A DNA stretch of 26,219 bases from a virus. This document shows, in pieces, positions 2 to 13,184 of this stretch. Every line of letters starts with the position of its first letter. Position 1 is the stretch's first letter. The stretch is taken from positions 1 to 26,219 of IMG/VR virus record IMGVR_UViG_3300021962_000555; one strand, 5' to 3'. The position numbers and the translations under genes are program-made. A model generated the notes under the pieces. That model saw nothing but the letters and a program-made list of their open reading frames with translations, was not told the DNA's origin and made no database searches.

Positions 2-3000
2 ATTACCGTCGATCCTAGCAATCCTACCTGCCAAGATGTAGCATCTGCTATCACATCTCTCTTCAGTATGCTAATCACTTCGATTGGCACAACTGCAGTT
101 CCTGGTACTCTGGCGGCATTTACAGCAGCATATACCGAAACTGCACCGTCAACTGCTCGTGCTGGTTATACCGATTCTTGCATCTCCCAAACATCTGCAA
201 TCACCAACTTCATCCGTATCATCACCGATACTCTTGAAGATCCAACTGGTGCAGATCCAACTACTTATCAGTGGTCAATTTCAAATCTCACTCGCGTTGA
301 ACCTCCGTATGCATTTGAAGATGGTGAAACAATTCGTTGCACCAAACACGCATACAGCAACAAGTCTTCTGGTGGTTTCTTCTCCTTTGGTAATGTCGTT
401 AAGGCAATTACTTCTGGAGCAACATTCGATGTTATTGGTTCAAACGCTGGCAACAAGTGGATTTACTCCACAGATGTAACTGGTACATTAATTCCTGATG
501 AATACATCACTAACTCCAAACTGACAATTGCAAATGCAAGTACAGATTCACTGACATATAAAACCAATACTGGTTCAATATATTTCACTGGATCTGCATC
601 AAGAATTGATTTCCCTTCAGATGGGAGATTTGATTTTGGTACTGGTGATTACACCGTAGAGGCTTGGATTCGTCCTTCTGTGGTAACTGGTGTTCAGAGA
701 ATAATCGACCTCCGTGCTAGTGGTTCAGATACTGCAATTAGCGTATTTATGAGTGGCACTTCGCTTCGTTTTGGAGTTGGCGCTGCTGACGTTATTATTG
801 CTACCAGTGCAATTACAACTGCAAATACTTGGTATCACATTGCTGTTTCCAGAACATCGGGAACAACAAAACTCTTTGTTAATGGTGCTCAAGTTGGTTC
901 AGATTATAATGACACAAATGACTATTCCGATAGAGCAATTAAGATTGGTGCTTCATATACAAATGGTGAGGTTTATACAGGTCACATTGATAGTTTGATC
1001 ATTCGCTCTGGAATCGCTTCATATTCTGGTGCGTTTACTCCCCCACTTTCTTACACTTCATCAATTTATGATAAGTTCGTAATTCTTGGTGATAGTCCCT
1101 TCCCAATTGAACAGGGAGCAATCTATGCAAATTATGTTGCCACAACAATATCAGAAACAGTTGTTGATGAGGTGGAACTCTGGAGGCAAGAACTTACAGC
1201 AGAGGTTGTTGATCTTGCTCGTGAAGATTACAGAAAATCGGCAGAGGTTATCAGAAACAACATTGATTGGATTGCCGAAGAAGCAGTTGGTCGCCTGAAA
1301 GATCGTTACCCAGATTTTGTGATGCCTGGTGATGGGGCAGGTTCTTATTTTGGTACAAATATCTGCCTTCGTGATACAAAGTCATATATCATCCCAGCAA
1401 TCATTCAAGATTTGATTGATGGTGGAAACTACAACACAACAGTTGTTGGTAGAGCATATCTGGAATCATCTGGCGCACTGAAGCATATTGCTGGCGAACT
1501 TCTCCAGTCAACTTATACCTGGAATGAAGTCGGTAAACTTTGTATTGATGTAATCACTCTGGATGAAACAGATCTCACTGGTACTCATACAGATCAAATT
1601 CGTGTACCCAACTACTTCACTGCACCTGCTGCACAGGCAATTCAAGATAAGATCACTGAACTCACTGAACTTCTCCTCAGTATCATTTCACCTTCTGGCA
1701 ACAGATTCTATGATGCTGCTGACCTGATTTACTTCAACAGAAAGTTCATTGCAGATGAAGCAGTTTATTACATCGAGAATAAGTATCAAGTTAATGTTGG
1801 ATTTGCAATCCAAAATAAACTACAGATTCCTGGCGGTAGAGCAAAATGCGTCCGTGACCTGAGAGATTATATTCTCCCAGCAATTGTTGGAGATTTGATG
1901 ACTGGTGGCAACAACCAAGTCAATGCTGCTCTTGATTACTATATTGATGGTCAAACAAACATCAACTTTGTTGAGAATGAACTTCTTGCAATGATTGATG
2001 CTATTGAGTATGCAAAATATCTTTGCGGAAAAGCAATTAGTAACCTACTGATTGGTTACAACGAAAATCCCGCAGATGTGGCACTCGATTTTAGTAACTA
2101 TTATCAGGCAATTTGGTCCGAGTTGGATGTTTATAGAGACGACACAATTACCGTCGATCCTCAAGCGTATCAGGTTGATAATAGAATTTTCGATGCTGCC
2201 AATCTGATTGAAGCAAATGCACGCACGATTGCTGAAGAAGCGGTCGATTTGATGACTAAACTGAGTGCATTTGAAGCAGATAACTTTAAGGTTCCTGGCG
2301 GTAAGGTTAATTGTGAGGATGATATTGTCGCAATCCTCGATCAGATTGTTCACGACCTTCGTTTTGGTGGTAACTCCAAGACATATGATGCCGCTGGTCT
2401 GTACCTGAATTCCGATTTTGGTCTACAGCATATCGAAAACCAGTCGGAGGAAACCCTCTACACATTCAAACTGGCAAGAGATATGACTATCCTTGCTATG
2501 CAGAATAGACTTGGTTTCGTCCCTTATGAGGATGCTTCCACAACTGGACTGGGTGTACCTATTCCTAGAGATGATTATTATAATAATGCATCAGACGACA
2601 CTTATTATGATGCAGCAAATGAAATAGAAGCTAACTTGGCGTTTATTGCATCTACTGCGGTTGGACGTACTGTTTCCCAGTATCCTTCACTTAACATTCC
2701 TGGTGGTCCGTCAAACTGTATTGATGATATCAAAGATTATCTTGAGGAGTTGATTTTCAACCTGAGACACGGTGGAAACAACAGAGTCTGGTATGCAACC
2801 GAGTTCTACATCACGAATGCGAATGCAATTCAACACGTTACTTCTCAGGCAGCAGAAACTAAGTATGCATATGAGCAGGCACGAGATATTGCAATTGAAG
2901 TTCTTCGTCACGACACTGTAACTACTAATGGTTACACTCAAGGTTCGGCAGTTTATGACAATACAATTACAGTAGATACTGCCAATCCTAAGTGCCAAGC

Positions 3001-6000: not shown

Positions 6001-6952
6001 AGCTCTGGTTGGTCTCGCTCGCGTTGACGTGAAGAATGCTGGTCAAGGTTATAGATATCCTTCAGTTGTTGTTGAAACAACTGTTCCTGATGATTTCCTT
6101 GCACCTACTGGTCCAGCAGTTAATAGTGGTTTGGATATCTATGATCCTGGATTTGTTCCCATTGATCCCGCTAGCGGAATCATCGAGACCAGAATTGTCA
6201 TTCTTCAACAACCCAGAAGCATCACGGTCAATCAAGGTCAGACTGCAGTATTTGGTATTCTGGTAAACCTCGTGATTGATGAACCCGTTGTGTATACAAC
6301 AAAGACTGCTGCTAAGTCTGCTCTCCATCCATATTTCCAACAAGGTTCCACAGATGGTTACAGACTCTTGGGTGGTCAGTTCACCAAAGAAGCAGAATCT
6401 CCGATTCTGAACTTCGTGAGAGGTGCAACGTATGTATTCAATCAGTCTGATAATACAAACGTTGGTGATGCTCTATACATTGCTACTGAACTTGATGCGA
6501 CTGGTGGTGCATACCAGTTTACAACTGGTGTAACTTATAAGTTGGATGGTGTTGCTGTAGCAGATTTCGCTGAGTATGTTGCTGGGTTTAATACCTCCAC
6601 ACAACGCTTGGTCGAAATTGTGACTGATGAGCGTACTCCTCAGACTCTGTTCTACGTTTCAAACGGTGGAACAATTATGGGTAACAGCATCAACGTTGGT
6701 CCTGGTCAAATTGCATACCAATGGCAGAGAAAGGATTATGGCACAAATCTGTGGACAAATATTCCTGGAGCAACTAATGCAACATATGCAACTCCTCAAG
6801 TGACACAGGCATATGATAGGGATGAATATCGCGTGGGCGTTACTTCTCCTGGGGCAGTTCCTGTACTCAGTGAAGTTGCAGACCTCACGATTAACATTGG
6901 TGCAACTGTAATTGATGACTTTAACGCAACTCAGGTCTTTGACGATCCATAA
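2..6952 (+). CDS. Giant modular virion structural protein, 5' end outside the window
   Basis: The frame is open from base 2 and the codons before the first ATG (68) encode a copy of a repeat found later in the protein, so the gene begins to the left; 2316 residues are visible. Order seen: two short Cys-helix repeats (2-308), a LamG/concanavalin-like beta-sandwich (about 572-1055, with TVEAWIRP and WYHIAVSR signatures), four long helical repeats (1229-2920), three short Cys-helix repeats (2957-3390), a fifth long repeat (3391-3690), beta modules (about 4160-4700), two tandem modules of the FDGVQTSF...FVNAILQPPG type (5230-5730), GxGY beta-repeats (5900-6090), and an Ig-like domain (6190-6940) split by a cupredoxin-like insertion. 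There is no signal peptide or membrane segment. The neighbours (gp8, tail fibre) point to a baseplate or tail-associated protein; the exact role is unknown. Start outside window, stop TAA at 6950-6952. Confidence 0.88.
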   Translation: MTVDPSNPTCQDVASAITSLFSMLITSIGTTAVPGTLAAFTAAYTETAPSTARAGYTDSCISQTSAITNFIRIITDTLEDPTGADPTTYQWSISNLTRVEPPYAFEDGETIRCTKHAYSNKSSGGFFSFGNVVKAITSGATFDVIGSNAGNKWIYSTDVTGTLIPDEYITNSKLTIANASTDSLTYKTNTGSIYFTGSASRIDFPSDGRFDFGTGDYTVEAWIRPSVVTGVQRIIDLRASGSDTAISVFMSGTSLRFGVGAADVIIATSAITTANTWYHIAVSRTSGTTKLFVNGAQVGSDYNDTNDYSDRAIKIGASYTNGEVYTGHIDSLIIRSGIASYSGAFTPPLSYTSSIYDKFVILGDSPFPIEQGAIYANYVATTISETVVDEVELWRQELTAEVVDLAREDYRKSAEVIRNNIDWIAEEAVGRLKDRYPDFVMPGDGAGSYFGTNICLRDTKSYIIPAIIQDLIDGGNYNTTVVGRAYLESSGALKHIAGELLQSTYTWNEVGKLCIDVITLDETDLTGTHTDQIRVPNYFTAPAAQAIQDKITELTELLLSIISPSGNRFYDAADLIYFNRKFIADEAVYYIENKYQVNVGFAIQNKLQIPGGRAKCVRDLRDYILPAIVGDLMTGGNNQVNAALDYYIDGQTNINFVENELLAMIDAIEYAKYLCGKAISNLLIGYNENPADVALDFSNYYQAIWSELDVYRDDTITVDPQAYQVDNRIFDAANLIEANARTIAEEAVDLMTKLSAFEADNFKVPGGKVNCEDDIVAILDQIVHDLRFGGNSKTYDAAGLYLNSDFGLQHIENQSEETLYTFKLARDMTILAMQNRLGFVPYEDASTTGLGVPIPRDDYYNNASDDTYYDAANEIEANLAFIASTAVGRTVSQYPSLNIPGGPSNCIDDIKDYLEELIFNLRHGGNNRVWYATEFYITNANAIQHVTSQAAETKYAYEQARDIAIEVLRHDTVTTNGYTQGSAVYDNTITVDTANPKCQAASAAVSTLMSIVIDLFNNTGNPQGYLNGITRTLPEEWPLTGEREIRRDITITYDAGGCQSQVSAINTLWDIVIDTVDTAAQGNGNYLVNVTRTEPVQTNTEYSAGVCYDVRSAMHTLFGIITDTLGGAPAMYQDAARMLLYNDQYIRNEAYYKTTGQYSAYSIPDTLSDDIVKALQYDLITNGNAATLNLLNGWFNADGVFIAFQNEFRTRVVYHVNAIKQMVIDVLQQDAPNPGVYINESTYTNREIRLSTAATNKVNYLFHLLLTAIERSSYPQTYLTKTFDAGVAVANSRINVTSHRFQAYDKVEYTVLGTAIPGLNKKFYWIHPLTTATAIYLMEYPDSDPTYKGIVQISPGNVSEIHTLQIPTDPGIERVEVSYGNREVQPPISAGITLSDVIYGVTTGAYAEVVRIQDNLADIHYVVTHFEMENFSYDGAIGLQFVNGEQVVVQGATQNTGYILATDNATYVKLLSVAGVFSAGNTFEGIDSGATADIVSYNNRMLVNFKQGEFLSTDKIYSVNSGTKANALVVRNNNGALIDNQAGRVTFDIETITGEFKTNDVIYGSVTDQIVKIEAFTSLPSFGDYVHAREITRLTYSQLVTDTGVTDTFEVGDILQVLNGGIIIDWTVTVTELDEDNNYLYICNVTNTPEGLTISDIASNSAYTIGKIPSGSLFPSVYTQVAAVDITQTSAYGKIAKIVQSGLSATLWLEDSSGTFQKNAQLIGNAGFRGACSAARILRGRVRRYFRGFDGVQTSFKLTTGNGTPYFPDPAGHMMIFVNAILQPPGADYSFTSFSDVIQFTEAPAVGSTFHGVYVGKLRQLDDISFDFDSLRNSFNLKLNGVFYSLTLTEGVQSNTIRPENNIICQLNGVIQEPGIGFELVGSRIIFSEIPRAGSTFVAFSYIGSDVDVIAATVVPPIEIGDELIIDGEEDNRTVALIESSNSLITFEYSGAVKGRNADALAEIETGRVVSAVLTNSGDGYVDRPQVDVISSSGFGARIKALVGLARVDVKNAGQGYRYPSVVVETTVPDDFLAPTGPAVNSGLDIYDPGFVPIDPASGIIETRIVILQQPRSITVNQGQTAVFGILVNLVIDEPVVYTTKTAAKSALHPYFQQGSTDGYRLLGGQFTKEAESPILNFVRGATYVFNQSDNTNVGDALYIATELDATGGAYQFTTGVTYKLDGVAVADFAEYVAGFNTSTQRLVEIVTDERTPQTLFYVSNGGTIMGNSINVGPGQIAYQWQRKDYGTNLWTNIPGATNATYATPQVTQAYDRDEYRVGVTSPGAVPVLSEVADLTINIGATVIDDFNATQVFDDP
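572..1055 (+). other. LamG / concanavalin A-like lectin domain inside the giant structural protein
   Basis: About 160 residues read as a jelly-roll domain of the Laminin_G_3 kind: FDFGTGDYTVEAWIRP, then NTWYHIAVSRTSGTTKLFVN and a closing strand with HIDSLIIRSGIASY. The WYHIAVSR...LFVNG pattern is a hallmark of the family. Such domains often bind glycans or proteins, so surface attachment is plausible, but no ligand can be read from the sequence. It sits between the short and long helical repeats, as if inserted into a repeat array. Confidence 0.75.
1229..3690 (+). repeat. Five long helical protein repeats (about 105-120 residues each)
   Basis: Copies begin near 1229, 1706, 2183, 2600 and 3391. 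Each starts with a helix of the form DAAxLIxxNxxFIAxEAV, then a loop usually containing PGG, then (copies 1-4) a Cys followed by an amphipathic helix such as CVRDLRDYILPAIVGDL and a GGN turn. Copies are diverged at the DNA level, so the duplications are old. Copy 5 has lost the Cys. Between copies 4 and 5 lie three short repeats (2957-3390) made only of the Cys-helix part, and two more short ones lie at 2-308. These are repeats of coding sequence, not DNA regulatory repeats. Confidence 0.8.
6265..6697 (+). other. Cupredoxin-like domain without copper ligands, inserted in an Ig-like domain
   Basis: The Ig-like domain starts with ILQQPRSITVNQGQTAVFGI and resumes with QIAYQWQRKDYGTNLWTNIPG; between them is about 140 residues with FVRGATYVFNQSDNTN, TTGVTY and PQTLFYVSNGGTIMGNSINV. 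This insert aligns with the C-terminal domain of the protein at 8352-9734. At the positions of the copper ligands it has Asp (codon 6467), Ser (6659), Gly (6668) and Met (6677), so three of four ligands are lost and copper binding is not expected. Confidence 0.6.
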
Positions 6953-6968: not shown

Positions 6969-8324
6969 ATGACCGCTATAGGTTCTTACGACAATCTAAC
7001 AAACACCTTAACAGTAACTGGGGATGGACTACCATACCCAGTTCGTCCTGGGGTCTTTCCAAATGCCAACAATCCTAACACCATTGTTGCTTACACATTC
7101 GACCATTCCTTCACTTACAGAGGCGGAACAAACACAGATTCTCCTGGGTCTGTCGGTTTGGGTGCTATTGGTATTGCTGCAAACGGTGTCGTCTTCTTTA
7201 ATCCTAGTGCTGGAAATGGCGGTAACCCGCCGCCAGGATTTTCCTATGTGGCAGCAGGCAACAATACTGCTGTTAGTTTTGGTGAAGATAGTTGTGGTGG
7301 TCATCCTGAGCAGAATGGTCAGTACCATTATCACGATAGTGACTTCATAGAATGTTGGAATAGCAATCAGTCTATGGCTGGTTACAATGATTACTATGGA
7401 TCATCGCAATACAATGGTGATAATATTAGACATCCAGATGGACACTCTAAGATTTTAGGGTTCTGTTTTGATGGATATCCTGTATATGGACCTTGGGGAT
7501 ATTTAAATCCCACAGATAATAATTCAAGTGTTGTCAGAATGGTTTCTGGTTATCAAACCAAACCATCCGAATCTCCTGGTAGACCATCATATTCCGAATA
7601 TCCTGCAGGTGTTTTTGTCGAAGACTGGGCATATTATGGTGGCGGTCAGACTCTGGATGAACATAATGGAAGATACTGCGTAACACCAGAATTTCCAAAT
7701 GGCACTTGGGCATATTTTGTCACAACTGATCCTCAGGGAGAACCAACATTCCCATTTATGATCGGATTGACCTCAAAAGAAACCCTACAAGTTCCACCCA
7801 ACAGTGGATTTGTTCCCCTTATTGAGGAAGAACAACCAGTTTTTGTTGGTGCACAGTCAATTGTAATTTCTCTGCAACCGACAAATGCAAGCACTCAAGT
7901 AAATACAAACCAAACATTTACAGTTCTAGCAAATGTGCAGCCTGGTAATGGAATTCTTCACTACCAATGGCAAGTTTCTACCGATGGTGGTTTTTCTTGG
8001 GCAAATATTAAGGGTCAAACATCAAATGTTCTGACTGTATATGCCTTGGCATATATGACTGGTTATCGTTATAGATGCATTTTGACGGGTCCGATTGGCG
8101 CTACAAACCCAGCGCAAAATTCTCCATTGGCATCAAATCTTGCCATTTTATCGGTCACAGGTATTGGATCAAGTATCGATTTTGCCAGCATCTTACAATT
8201 TGATGATGCTACTGGTTCATATGATATGACTCCAGTATCGTTTGATAAAGACAATAACAATCCAAACTTCACAACCACATCCATTAGGTTTAGCAACACT
8301 GTGGTTGACTTCGATATGACATAA
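6969..8324 (+). CDS. YHYH-family domain protein with C-terminal Ig-like domain, probable virion protein
   Basis: This 451-residue protein has a full YHYH-type domain (about residues 60-270): ANGVVFFNP, then DSCGGHPEQNGQYHYH (Tyr119-His122, with Cys109 and His112), GHSKILGFCFDGYPVYGPWG (about 158-177), and LDEHNGR...FPNGTWAYFVTT with a final FPFMIG. These are the ordered motifs of the YHYH family (Pfam YHYH), whose biochemical role is not established to my knowledge; the conserved His and Tyr suggest metal binding. Residues about 290-400 form an Ig-like domain (YQWQVSTDGGFSWANIKG) closely like the split one at the end of the upstream gene. There is no signal peptide, in keeping with a particle protein rather than a secreted host-type enzyme. 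ATG at 6969 is 16 bases after the previous stop, with no clear Shine-Dalgarno. The tail after the Ig domain is Asp-rich and unassigned. Confidence 0.85.
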   Translation: MTAIGSYDNLTNTLTVTGDGLPYPVRPGVFPNANNPNTIVAYTFDHSFTYRGGTNTDSPGSVGLGAIGIAANGVVFFNPSAGNGGNPPPGFSYVAAGNNTAVSFGEDSCGGHPEQNGQYHYHDSDFIECWNSNQSMAGYNDYYGSSQYNGDNIRHPDGHSKILGFCFDGYPVYGPWGYLNPTDNNSSVVRMVSGYQTKPSESPGRPSYSEYPAGVFVEDWAYYGGGQTLDEHNGRYCVTPEFPNGTWAYFVTTDPQGEPTFPFMIGLTSKETLQVPPNSGFVPLIEEEQPVFVGAQSIVISLQPTNASTQVNTNQTFTVLANVQPGNGILHYQWQVSTDGGFSWANIKGQTSNVLTVYALAYMTGYRYRCILTGPIGATNPAQNSPLASNLAILSVTGIGSSIDFASILQFDDATGSYDMTPVSFDKDNNNPNFTTTSIRFSNTVVDFDMT

Positions 8325-8351: not shown

Positions 8352-9734
8352 ATGGCAAAGCAAAACATAAATGTAGGTGTATCAGCCAACGATGGAACAG
8401 GTGATACTCTAAGAGATGGTGCCATTAAGATTAATAACGTCATCAATGAGCTTTATGCTTATCTTGGTGATGATACGAATCTTCGCATCAATATCAATTC
8501 GCCGTCCACAAATCAAGTTCTAAAATGGGATGGTACTACCTTCACGGAAGGTCAACTTTCTATTGAAAATCTGACTAATGTTGATTTGTCAGGTATCACT
8601 AATGGTCAAGTTCTGAAATGGAATACTACCAGTAACAAATTCCAACCTGGGGATGATCTACAAAGCACTGGATCTGGTAGCGGTCTCAGCAACATTTCAA
8701 ACAATGGTAACGGGGACCTTGTTGTTAGTGCAGATATTCTCCCCAATAGCGATGTTACATATGATCTGGGTTCGCCTTCACTGAAGTTCCGCGATCTGTA
8801 TCTCTCAACCGCCACAATTTGGTTGGATGATACTGGACTTTCTACTGACGAAAATACTCAAGAACTCGTCCATAAAAAGAGAAATCTTCACCTTGTCCAG
8901 TCGATTAACACTGGATCTCAGCGTATAGTTGAATCAAAACTTTCTACAGAGAATGCTCTCGAAAAAGAGAAATTCCACAGTCGTTTCGGTTCTATGAAAC
9001 CTGGAACGAGAGTTGATGTCCGTGATGTCGGTGGCATTCTGATTCACTTGGATTTTGTTAGCTTTACTGAAGAGACTGGTCCTGCTCGTGGTTATGCAGT
9101 ATTTAATGCTGTTGGTCCTGGCGACCAATCACCAGAACTTAATGTAAATCTTCCTCTGGAAATTACTTCACACAATAGAGTTCTTTCTGAGGATGAAACT
9201 GGTAGCGTTCAGATTCAAGCAGATGATCTGACTTTTGGTGGTGGTCACAAACTGAAGATCGACGCTGAAGGTAATCTTCAAGTTGCCGTTGAAGGTGGTG
9301 AGTTTGAAGATGCTGATGGCGGTTTCCGTAGAGAGCAGAGCAACGCACCTGAGGGATCAACAGTCATCAAGGGTCAGAATGGCGTATCTACTTACGCTCC
9401 ATCCCCCGCATTGTTCTACAGGATGACTCCTGTCGGTTCTAACGCATATCTGATGTATGGTCCTGGTCTACCTGCAGAGGGCGCTCAGAACCCCTCTCTG
9501 GTCCTTTACAGAGGGTTTACATACATCTTTATCAACCTTGCTGGTGGTGCACATCCGTTTAGGATTCAATCAACCGCTGGTTTGGCTGGTACAAGATATA
9601 CAACTGGTATAACTCCCCCGACTGGCGGTGAGTTTGGTGCTCAGCACTTCACCGTTCCCCACGATGCGCCCGACACTCTGTATTACCAGTGCACTATTCA
9701 CGCTGCAATGAATGGCACTTTTACGATTCGTTGA
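8352..9734 (+). CDS. Fibre-like structural protein with C-terminal cupredoxin-like domain
   Basis: The 460-residue protein opens with NINVGVSANDGTGDTLRDGA and a KINNVINELYAYLGD helix, an N-terminal motif common in marine phage tail and fibre proteins. Then come two GQVLKW repeats (about 55-100) and a YDLGSPSLKFRDLYLS motif typical of phage fibre modules. The middle (about 170-310) is unassigned. The last 85 residues form a cupredoxin-like beta-sandwich: LVLYRGFTYIFINLAGGAHPFRI, a TTGITPP segment, then APDTLYYQCTIHAAMNG. His401, Cys447, His450 and Met453 fall where type 1 copper ligands belong, and the C-x2-H-x2-M loop equals that of amicyanin. Copper binding is inferred, not shown. The gene starts 27 bases after the previous stop and ends in tandem stops TGA TAA, directly followed by the next ATG. 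Confidence 0.85.
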   Translation: MAKQNINVGVSANDGTGDTLRDGAIKINNVINELYAYLGDDTNLRININSPSTNQVLKWDGTTFTEGQLSIENLTNVDLSGITNGQVLKWNTTSNKFQPGDDLQSTGSGSGLSNISNNGNGDLVVSADILPNSDVTYDLGSPSLKFRDLYLSTATIWLDDTGLSTDENTQELVHKKRNLHLVQSINTGSQRIVESKLSTENALEKEKFHSRFGSMKPGTRVDVRDVGGILIHLDFVSFTEETGPARGYAVFNAVGPGDQSPELNVNLPLEITSHNRVLSEDETGSVQIQADDLTFGGGHKLKIDAEGNLQVAVEGGEFEDADGGFRREQSNAPEGSTVIKGQNGVSTYAPSPALFYRMTPVGSNAYLMYGPGLPAEGAQNPSLVLYRGFTYIFINLAGGAHPFRIQSTAGLAGTRYTTGITPPTGGEFGAQHFTVPHDAPDTLYYQCTIHAAMNGTFTIR

Positions 9735-11648: not shown

Positions 11649-13184
11649 ATGGCACTACTTACAGACCAATTCAGAATTTTTACAGCGGAAAAGTTTATCA
11701 AGTCACTTGAAGGTCCAGACAAGACCGAGAGTGATATTTCTGCAGGCGCAAATCGTGATCGCTTGTATGTGTTCATTGGTAGACCGCAAGAATGGGATAA
11801 TGAAAATAATCCCCCAACTCCGATTGATTCATTTCAAGATTTTTCGGATGCTTACGACGATATGATTTCAATGAAGCGCATTCTTGCGAATGACGCTGTT
11901 CAAGTTATTCGTCGCATTGATTGGATTCCTCCTGAGCAAACTACAGGTGGTTTGGGTTATGTGTACGATATGTATCGTCACGATTACTCATCTTCCAAGA
12001 CCGCATCTTCTGGTGCTACTAAACTGTATGATGCAGACTTCTATGTGGTGAATTCATCATACCAAGTTTATAAGTGCATCTACAACGGCACTTCACCTTC
12101 CGATCCCAACGGTAAACCTTCAACCATCGAACCTACAGGTACTTCAACATCGATCATCACAACTGCTGATGGTTATCGTTGGAAGTATATGTACACCATC
12201 CCTGTGGGTCAGGTGTTGAAGTTCTTCTCGGCAGACTATATGCCCGTTCTGATCGATACCGCTGTTCAGTCTGATGCTGTTGGCGGTGAGATTGATACCG
12301 TAGTTATCCAGTCTTCTGGTTCTGGTTATAACAACGGAACTTATGAAAACGTTTCCGTTAAAGGTGATGGTACTGGCGGTCGTATCTCCATCGTGGTTGA
12401 TGGTGGTAAGATCGTTTCTGCTACTGTGACTTCTGGTGGTTCCAACTACTCCTTCGGTAAAGTGATTATCGATGAAGTCAATGGTATCGGTGCTGGTACA
12501 GGTACTGGTGGTGCTATTGACGTAATCATTCCCCCTAAAGGTGGTCACGGATCAACCCCCCAAATTGAACTTGGTGGTTTCCGTGTAATGATTAATACCA
12601 AGTTTACATATTCTGAAGGTTCTGGAGACTTCCCAACCGATAACGACTATCGTCGTATTGGTCTGGTGCTGAATCCCCTTAAGTTTGGTACGGAAGAACT
12701 TGCAGATGCGATTACTATTTCTGCATCTAATGCTGTAATTTTCCCCCCTGATTTCACAGGTTCGTTTAACACTGACGAAATCATCACCCAAACTAGAACT
12801 GTTGGTGGTCAACAGGTAACTGCTCGTGGACGAGTAGTTTCTTGGAATTCTGTAACTAAAGTTTTGAAATACTATCAAAATAGAATTGATGGTATTTTCC
12901 CAGAGATTACGGGCAACAAAGTTGAATTCTCTGGTGGTAATACAATTGTTGGTTCTGGATCTGGTACTTCAGTAGATCCCGATATCAACTTCCCTGTTGT
13001 TCCTGGTGAAGCTACTCGTGTTATTAACAACACAGAGTACGATCTTGGTATGTCATTCACTTCAGGTTACGCCAAACCAGAAGTGAAAAAGGACTCTGGT
13101 AAAGTTATCTACATAGATAATAGGAGAGCGATCTCCCGTGCTGGCGACCAAATTGAAGACATTAAGATCGTAGTAGAGTTCTAA
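11649..13184 (+). CDS. gp8: Baseplate wedge subunit, T4 gp8 homologue (enlarged)
   Basis: Gp8 is a structural subunit of the six wedges of the T4 baseplate. The N-terminus (RIFTAEKFIKSL, then VFIGRPQEWD and FQDFSDAYDDMISMKRIL) matches the T4 pattern of SKFRTEKML, ITFGRSEPW and a following helix. TADGYRWKYMYTIPVGQVLK...ADYMPV (about residues 172-200) matches T4 PGDGYVWEYLFEIP...NEYIVV. RRIGLVLNPL (about 335) matches QISIITNPL, and the last 28 residues (GKVIYIDNRRAI...DQIEDIKIVVEF) match GEMIYMENRPPI...DQTEEINILFTF. At 511 residues it is much longer than T4 gp8 (334). The extra length is a GxGY/Gly-rich beta insert (about 215-300) and a module with ARGRVVSWNSVTKVL (about 390-400) shared with the upstream protein. 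It is followed two bases later by the next ATG. Confidence 0.85.
   Translation: MALLTDQFRIFTAEKFIKSLEGPDKTESDISAGANRDRLYVFIGRPQEWDNENNPPTPIDSFQDFSDAYDDMISMKRILANDAVQVIRRIDWIPPEQTTGGLGYVYDMYRHDYSSSKTASSGATKLYDADFYVVNSSYQVYKCIYNGTSPSDPNGKPSTIEPTGTSTSIITTADGYRWKYMYTIPVGQVLKFFSADYMPVLIDTAVQSDAVGGEIDTVVIQSSGSGYNNGTYENVSVKGDGTGGRISIVVDGGKIVSATVTSGGSNYSFGKVIIDEVNGIGAGTGTGGAIDVIIPPKGGHGSTPQIELGGFRVMINTKFTYSEGSGDFPTDNDYRRIGLVLNPLKFGTEELADAITISASNAVIFPPDFTGSFNTDEIITQTRTVGGQQVTARGRVVSWNSVTKVLKYYQNRIDGIFPEITGNKVEFSGGNTIVGSGSGTSVDPDINFPVVPGEATRVINNTEYDLGMSFTSGYAKPEVKKDSGKVIYIDNRRAISRAGDQIEDIKIVVEF

Follow-up and report, generated by a model that had tools for sequence, protein, structure and literature searches.

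Can a tail protein of an ocean phage hold a type 1 copper site? Blue-copper domains are known as electron carriers and as parts of enzymes. A preliminary description of the viral DNA analysed here (26,219 nucleotides, hereafter the window) had reported an apparently complete site of this kind at the C-terminus of a phage structural protein. We examined the protein, its predicted fold, the conservation of the four putative ligands, and the related domains in which those ligands are kept or lost.

A gp9-like protein in a tail gene cluster

The window, a 26-kb virus fragment, derives from a T4-like cyanomyovirus, more precisely from its tail gene cluster. Among named phages, Prochlorococcus phage P-SSM7 and Synechococcus phages match its DNA most closely (~72–77% identity over parts), and its gene order (gp9, an unnamed gene, gp8 and a VrlC-like gene) is the same as in P-SSM7. 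The ORF of interest encodes 460 amino acids from an ATG start without an internal stop (Table 1). PF07880 (T4_gp9_10_N) matched its product with 39.9 bits against a cut-off of 25, and residues 70–459 matched PHROG 677, annotated as a baseplate wedge tail fibre protein connector; the ORF at 11649–13184 encodes a gp8-like baseplate wedge protein (phrog_438). The assignment as a phage structural protein is thus borne out, and can be sharpened to a T4 gp9-like connector between baseplate and tail fibres. The gp9 protein of T4 attaches the long tail fibres to the baseplate, and by homology (PF07880, phrog_677) the window protein would take a host-facing position on the tail. It shares with T4 gp9 and gp10 the PF07880 region and the baseplate gene neighbourhood, but its sequence similarity to the T4 proteins is limited to the N-terminal region, and its C-terminal domain matched no T4 structure in a Foldseek search of the PDB. 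The PHROG entry names the gp9-like protein only as a connector.

Two neighbouring ORFs have features of their own. ORF2 (6969–8324), which adjoins gp9, encodes a YHYH-family protein (PF14240, E = 1.1e-35). ORF1 encodes a large structural protein in which residues 390–441 (window 1235–1390) match the Pfam Phycobilisome family (PF00502, E = 1.8e-8); this segment has a CLRD motif that recalls a bilin-attachment site, and after it come several helical units that are similar but more degenerate.

Table 1. Features of the window that bear on the cupredoxin-like domain (all positions in window coordinates).
Feature	Position	Strand	Evidence
gp9-like baseplate wedge/tail-fibre connector with cupredoxin-like domain	8352..9734	+	PF07880 E 5.9e-10; phrog_677 E 8.5e-71
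T4 gp9/gp10-like N-terminal region, residues 3–92	8358..8627	+	PF07880; phmmer to T4 gp10 E 1.5e-5
C-terminal cupredoxin-like domain, residues 362–460 (~99 aa)	9435..9731	+	AlphaFold2 pLDDT 90.9; Foldseek ranks 1–25 cupredoxins; alignment A1
His401, predicted first metal ligand, in HPFRI motif just before central strand	9552..9554	+	83/83 gp9; aligned to amicyanin His53
Cys447, predicted thiolate ligand, end of next-to-last strand	9690..9692	+	invariant; aligned to amicyanin Cys92
His450, predicted second His ligand	9699..9701	+	invariant in gp9; aligned to amicyanin His95
Met453, predicted axial ligand	9708..9710	+	invariant in gp9; Gln in six non-gp9 copies; aligned to amicyanin Met98
Second domain copy near C-terminus of ORF1, metal site lost	6359..6697	+	profile E down to 1e-18; L160 alignment; tree

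On the translation of this ORF, the four residues singled out in the preliminary description fall exactly where it had placed them, His401 in AHPFRI and Cys447, His450 and Met453 in YYQCTIHAAMNG, and the C-x2-H-x2-M spacing (residues 447/450/453) is indeed that of the amicyanin ligand loop. It had taken the last 85 residues as the domain; the C-terminal location stands but the extent does not, as the domain starts near residue 362, somewhat further upstream. Cys447 is the sole cysteine of the protein, and a disulphide role for it is ruled out because there is no second cysteine; that a solitary Cys is nonetheless conserved speaks for a metal site.

Predicted fold and ligand register

We modelled the domain with AlphaFold2 from 26 close relatives (model 1, pLDDT 72.6) and from 48 more diverse relatives (model 2, pLDDT 90.9, pTM 0.82); model 2 is a confident beta-sandwich. 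When compared with the PDB by Foldseek, both models returned amicyanins at the top, and the best 25 matches of model 2 were all cupredoxins (probability 0.97–1.00), including amicyanin, plastocyanin, pseudoazurin, copper nitrite reductases, AcoP and the purple cupredoxin of Nitrosopumilus. The fold, which had been assigned from family knowledge, is therefore corroborated, with amicyanin and plastocyanin leading the comparison of predicted structures. The match scores are modest (best Foldseek E for model 2 of 1.4e-3, TM-scores only ~0.5), so we regard the domain as a divergent cupredoxin.

The putative ligands lie at the expected places in the predicted strand order. In model 2, the first-ligand His is at model position 43, before strand 45–48; the ligand Cys (C89) ends strand 84–89; and H92 and M95 precede the last strand (96–101). 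Profile comparison put all four ligands in register with those of amicyanin (pairwise E = 8.7e-4 for the stretch) and of copper nitrite reductase (pairwise E = 4.5e-5). Profile searches of the whole PDB gave weak matches to the same two families (amicyanin, E = 0.034; copper nitrite reductase, E = 0.016).

Could a beta-sandwich hold a His and a C-x2-H-x2-M motif by accident? Short motifs may arise by chance, and the window domain taken alone matches no Pfam family and has no significant PDB match by sequence. However, the top places in an unbiased fold search of the PDB are all taken by cupredoxins, and the ligands are conserved in 75–83 distinct gp9 copies as well as in copies at 20% identity. 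We give a chance motif a negligible probability, and conservation together with the set-wise ligand loss described below rules it out.

Matches to Pfam families emerged among relatives of the window domain, which itself matched neither of the two families concerned. With E up to 1 allowed, the Copper-bind family (PF00127) matched 7 of 37 diverse members, the best at 7.5e-5; PF25489 (At5g54830-like domain), which is named after a plant protein, gave weak matches to 22 of the 26 close family members (lowest E = 5.2e-4). A genome search with PF25489 gave no match, and its controls were equally without a match. Foldseek against BFVD returned proteins of Pithovirus LCPAC and Marseillevirus LCMAC that are named 'beta-sandwich' and share the fold, and a YHYH-domain phage protein was also among the fold matches.

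Ligand conservation in gp9

Across 83 distinct gp9 C-termini drawn from the first 160 loci (33–99% pairwise identity), H401, C447, H450 and M453 were each present in 83/83; H432, H437, M358 and M368 of the same C-terminal region vary. The loci had been fetched with peptide patterns, and a ligand residue was part of two of the six patterns in one set and of both patterns in another, so we re-checked conservation in loci chosen otherwise. Loci L160–L163, fetched through the N-terminal 357 residues of gp9, have the same four ligands. The same His and C-x2-H-x2-M were found in named phages recovered by tblastn with the whole domain; those checked span the tblastn ranking and include the podoviruses P-GSP1 and P-SCSP2 and Pelagibacter phage Baldr.

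The pattern extends to distant members of the family. In 37 members that share 20–67% identity with the window domain, invariance is limited to H, Y, Y, C and H; the axial Met is kept in 36/37, with Gln in the one exception. Natural type 1 copper sites with an axial Gln are known (PMC6400189). The ligands are thus not free to vary in homologues, whether judged by the 83/83 gp9 C-termini, by the 75/75 gp9 copies of the census given below or by the 37 diverse members, and this strict conservation is the strongest evidence for the site.

Ligand loss in paralogous domains

The domain is not confined to gp9. It recurs in 1–4 copies per record in the 13 named phage records searched, and it was found by fold in other tail proteins, for example the P-SSM2 proximal tail fibre. 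In a census of 261 distinct domain copies, all four ligands were present in 75/75 gp9 copies (HCHM); copies from other genes comprised 109 with HCHM, 6 with HCHQ and 71 others, most of which lacked the ligands or were incomplete. Outside gp9, copies had mostly kept all ligands or none. In L041 and in L111 (2902–3261), the gene downstream of gp9 carries Gln at the Met position (CHYHTGQGNSF), an axial ligand of the stellacyanin type.

The window itself contains a copy that has lost the site, near the C-terminus of ORF1 (Table 1). Here the first His is changed to Asp, the Cys to Ser and the second His to Gly, and the Met is kept; THAIYF...YYACANHLKMGN in a relative corresponds to GDALYI...FYVSNGGTIMGN in the window. 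The equivalent ORF1 copy in L160–L162 retains the ligands. We placed 134 domain copies on a tree with the ligand columns masked, a tree with few columns and many unresolved forks, on which loss of the site takes two changes compared with a mean of 31.9 for shuffled labels. One loss lies in a 35-row clade of the gene downstream of gp9 and the other in the ORF1 copy of the window, and both are demanded by well-supported branches.

These losses bear on whether the site is empty. The domain could be a cupredoxin descendant that serves as a structural beta-sandwich, with its four residues kept for packing or assembly and no metal in the virion. Two lineages hold the fold without the ligands, so metal is not required for the fold in general and the sandwich can serve without it; moreover, free copper is low in seawater and in the cytoplasm. 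However, residues kept for packing would be expected to vary conservatively and singly, whereas here the ligands go as a set, the gp9 copy never loses one, and Met is replaced only by Gln, itself a type 1 ligand (PMC6400189). A working metal site would be expected to show just this, loss of the ligands together and never in gp9. The invariance of gp9 is hard to square with an empty site, which we consider unlikely. The ORF1 copy is a natural ligand-free control, and such paralogues can serve as built-in controls for the intact domain.

Which metal, and for what role

Fold match, ligand register, conservation and set-wise loss all support the intact amicyanin-type type 1 site predicted in the preliminary description. 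The C-terminal domain of gp9 is, in our judgement, probably a true metal-binding cupredoxin-type domain, and it is likewise probable that some metal is bound in the virion. That a blue-copper-like domain keeps its four ligands so strictly suggests that cyanophage particles may carry copper, which would be the likely native metal of the domain.

A different metal in the site, such as zinc, or copper(I) without a redox role, deserves consideration. In vitro, metals other than copper can occupy cupredoxin sites, and the cytoplasm in which virions are assembled contains more zinc than free copper. Set against this, His2-Cys-Met/Gln at amicyanin spacing is the ligand combination classically associated with copper (PMC12723479, PMC6400189); nothing computed here separates the metals. 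We hold a non-copper or redox-silent site to be an unlikely outcome.

We favour a predicted site that binds metal, most likely copper. Free copper should be scarce in the cytoplasm, and we therefore propose that copper might be loaded at lysis, or on meeting the copper-containing periplasm of the host. The bound metal would connect the closing hairpin with the first His and thereby lock a rigid module, which may lie at the junction that gp9 makes between baseplate and long tail fibres, or may face the cell. The module is found again in other tail proteins, some copies having shed the metal site while retaining the fold. We prefer this account because it accommodates both the recurrence of the fold among tail proteins and the tolerated loss of ligands in some copies. 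Gene context and knowledge of T4 incline us, by a little, towards a structural or adhesive role for the domain.

More active roles can also be imagined, such as exchange of electrons or copper at the host surface, sensing of the host, or bait for host copper uptake. In amicyanin an intact type 1 site does transfer electrons (PMC12723479), for phage tail fibres an iron version of such a scheme has been put forward (PMC11705849), and gp9 lies by homology on the host-facing part of the tail. However, we identified no partner or docking surface, the domain occurs in Pelagibacter and methylotroph phages and so is not bound to photosynthesis, and related tail genes still carry ligand-free copies. 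A role of the domain in electron transfer, in capturing copper or in sensing it finds no positive support here; we rate these roles as rather improbable. Equally doubtful in our view is a copper-dependent infection, in which virion copper at the joint of baseplate and fibre would change its binding or redox state at the host surface and so aid attachment or tail triggering.

Comparison with known systems

The closest known relatives by structure are the amicyanins (PDB 1aaj, 1sf3, 3ply), which give the best PDB fold match and share the C-x2-H-x2-M loop and four aligned ligands (His53, Cys92, His95 and Met98 in amicyanin; PMC12723479). The differences are also clear. Amicyanin is a soluble periplasmic electron carrier, whereas the phage version is the C-terminal domain of a virion baseplate protein; the residue pair at the first ligand is HP in the phage domain and HN in amicyanin; and identity is only ~25% over the match. 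A virion protein is hardly a credible electron acceptor for methylamine dehydrogenase, the role that amicyanin plays. The evidence supports placing the domain in the cupredoxin fold, and we do not claim membership of the amicyanin family proper.

Plastocyanin likewise shares the cupredoxin fold and the type 1 ligand types. Its ligand loop is longer than C-x2-H-x2-M. The plastocyanin gene petE acts in host photosynthesis, whereas the baseplate domain belongs to the virion and is also present in phages of non-photosynthetic hosts. Cyanophages carry petE as a metabolic gene (PMC3037559). Descent of the domain from phage petE does not appear favoured, because the loop spacing is amicyanin-like.

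Iron-binding HxH tail fibres and the Ferrojan Horse hypothesis offer a parallel for metal held by a host-facing tail protein (PMC11705849). There, iron is bound by paired His in the fibres; here, a cupredoxin fold is predicted to hold a mononuclear Cys/His/Met site. In the open-licence literature we found no paper linking cupredoxins with cyanophages, phage baseplates or tail fibres, an absence that is not proof, and gp9 goes unnamed in the one virion proteome section covered. Cupredoxins themselves are well known; what is new is a cupredoxin-type domain in a new place. If the site is real, a copper-type baseplate site in abundant ocean phages adds a transition metal to the virion parts list and gives the iron-based Ferrojan Horse idea a concrete copper counterpart. 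Phage infectivity could then depend on copper, a scarce and sometimes toxic metal in the ocean.

Distribution of the domain

A tblastn search with the domain returned 330 phage records at E ≤ 0.01, nearly all of them Synechococcus phages, Prochlorococcus phages or 'cyanophage', with a few marine and Pelagibacter phages. The domain was also found in a methylotroph phage, and its presence there and in a Pelagibacter phage indicates that it is not tied to photosynthesis. A plasmid search with the domain gave no match. The bacterial genomes searched yielded one close match, in a Rhodopirellula MAG, which is probably a phage contig, as a gp9-like gene and downstream structural genes lie together on it. 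Weaker matches, from a search of Planctomycetota, were to secreted planctomycete proteins. Secreted-looking bacterial proteins from this search (L258 and L260) have a related domain with SHPF or AHPF and a C-x5-H-x2-M spacing, followed by an EF-hand-like tail; these are possible cellular relatives of the phage domain.
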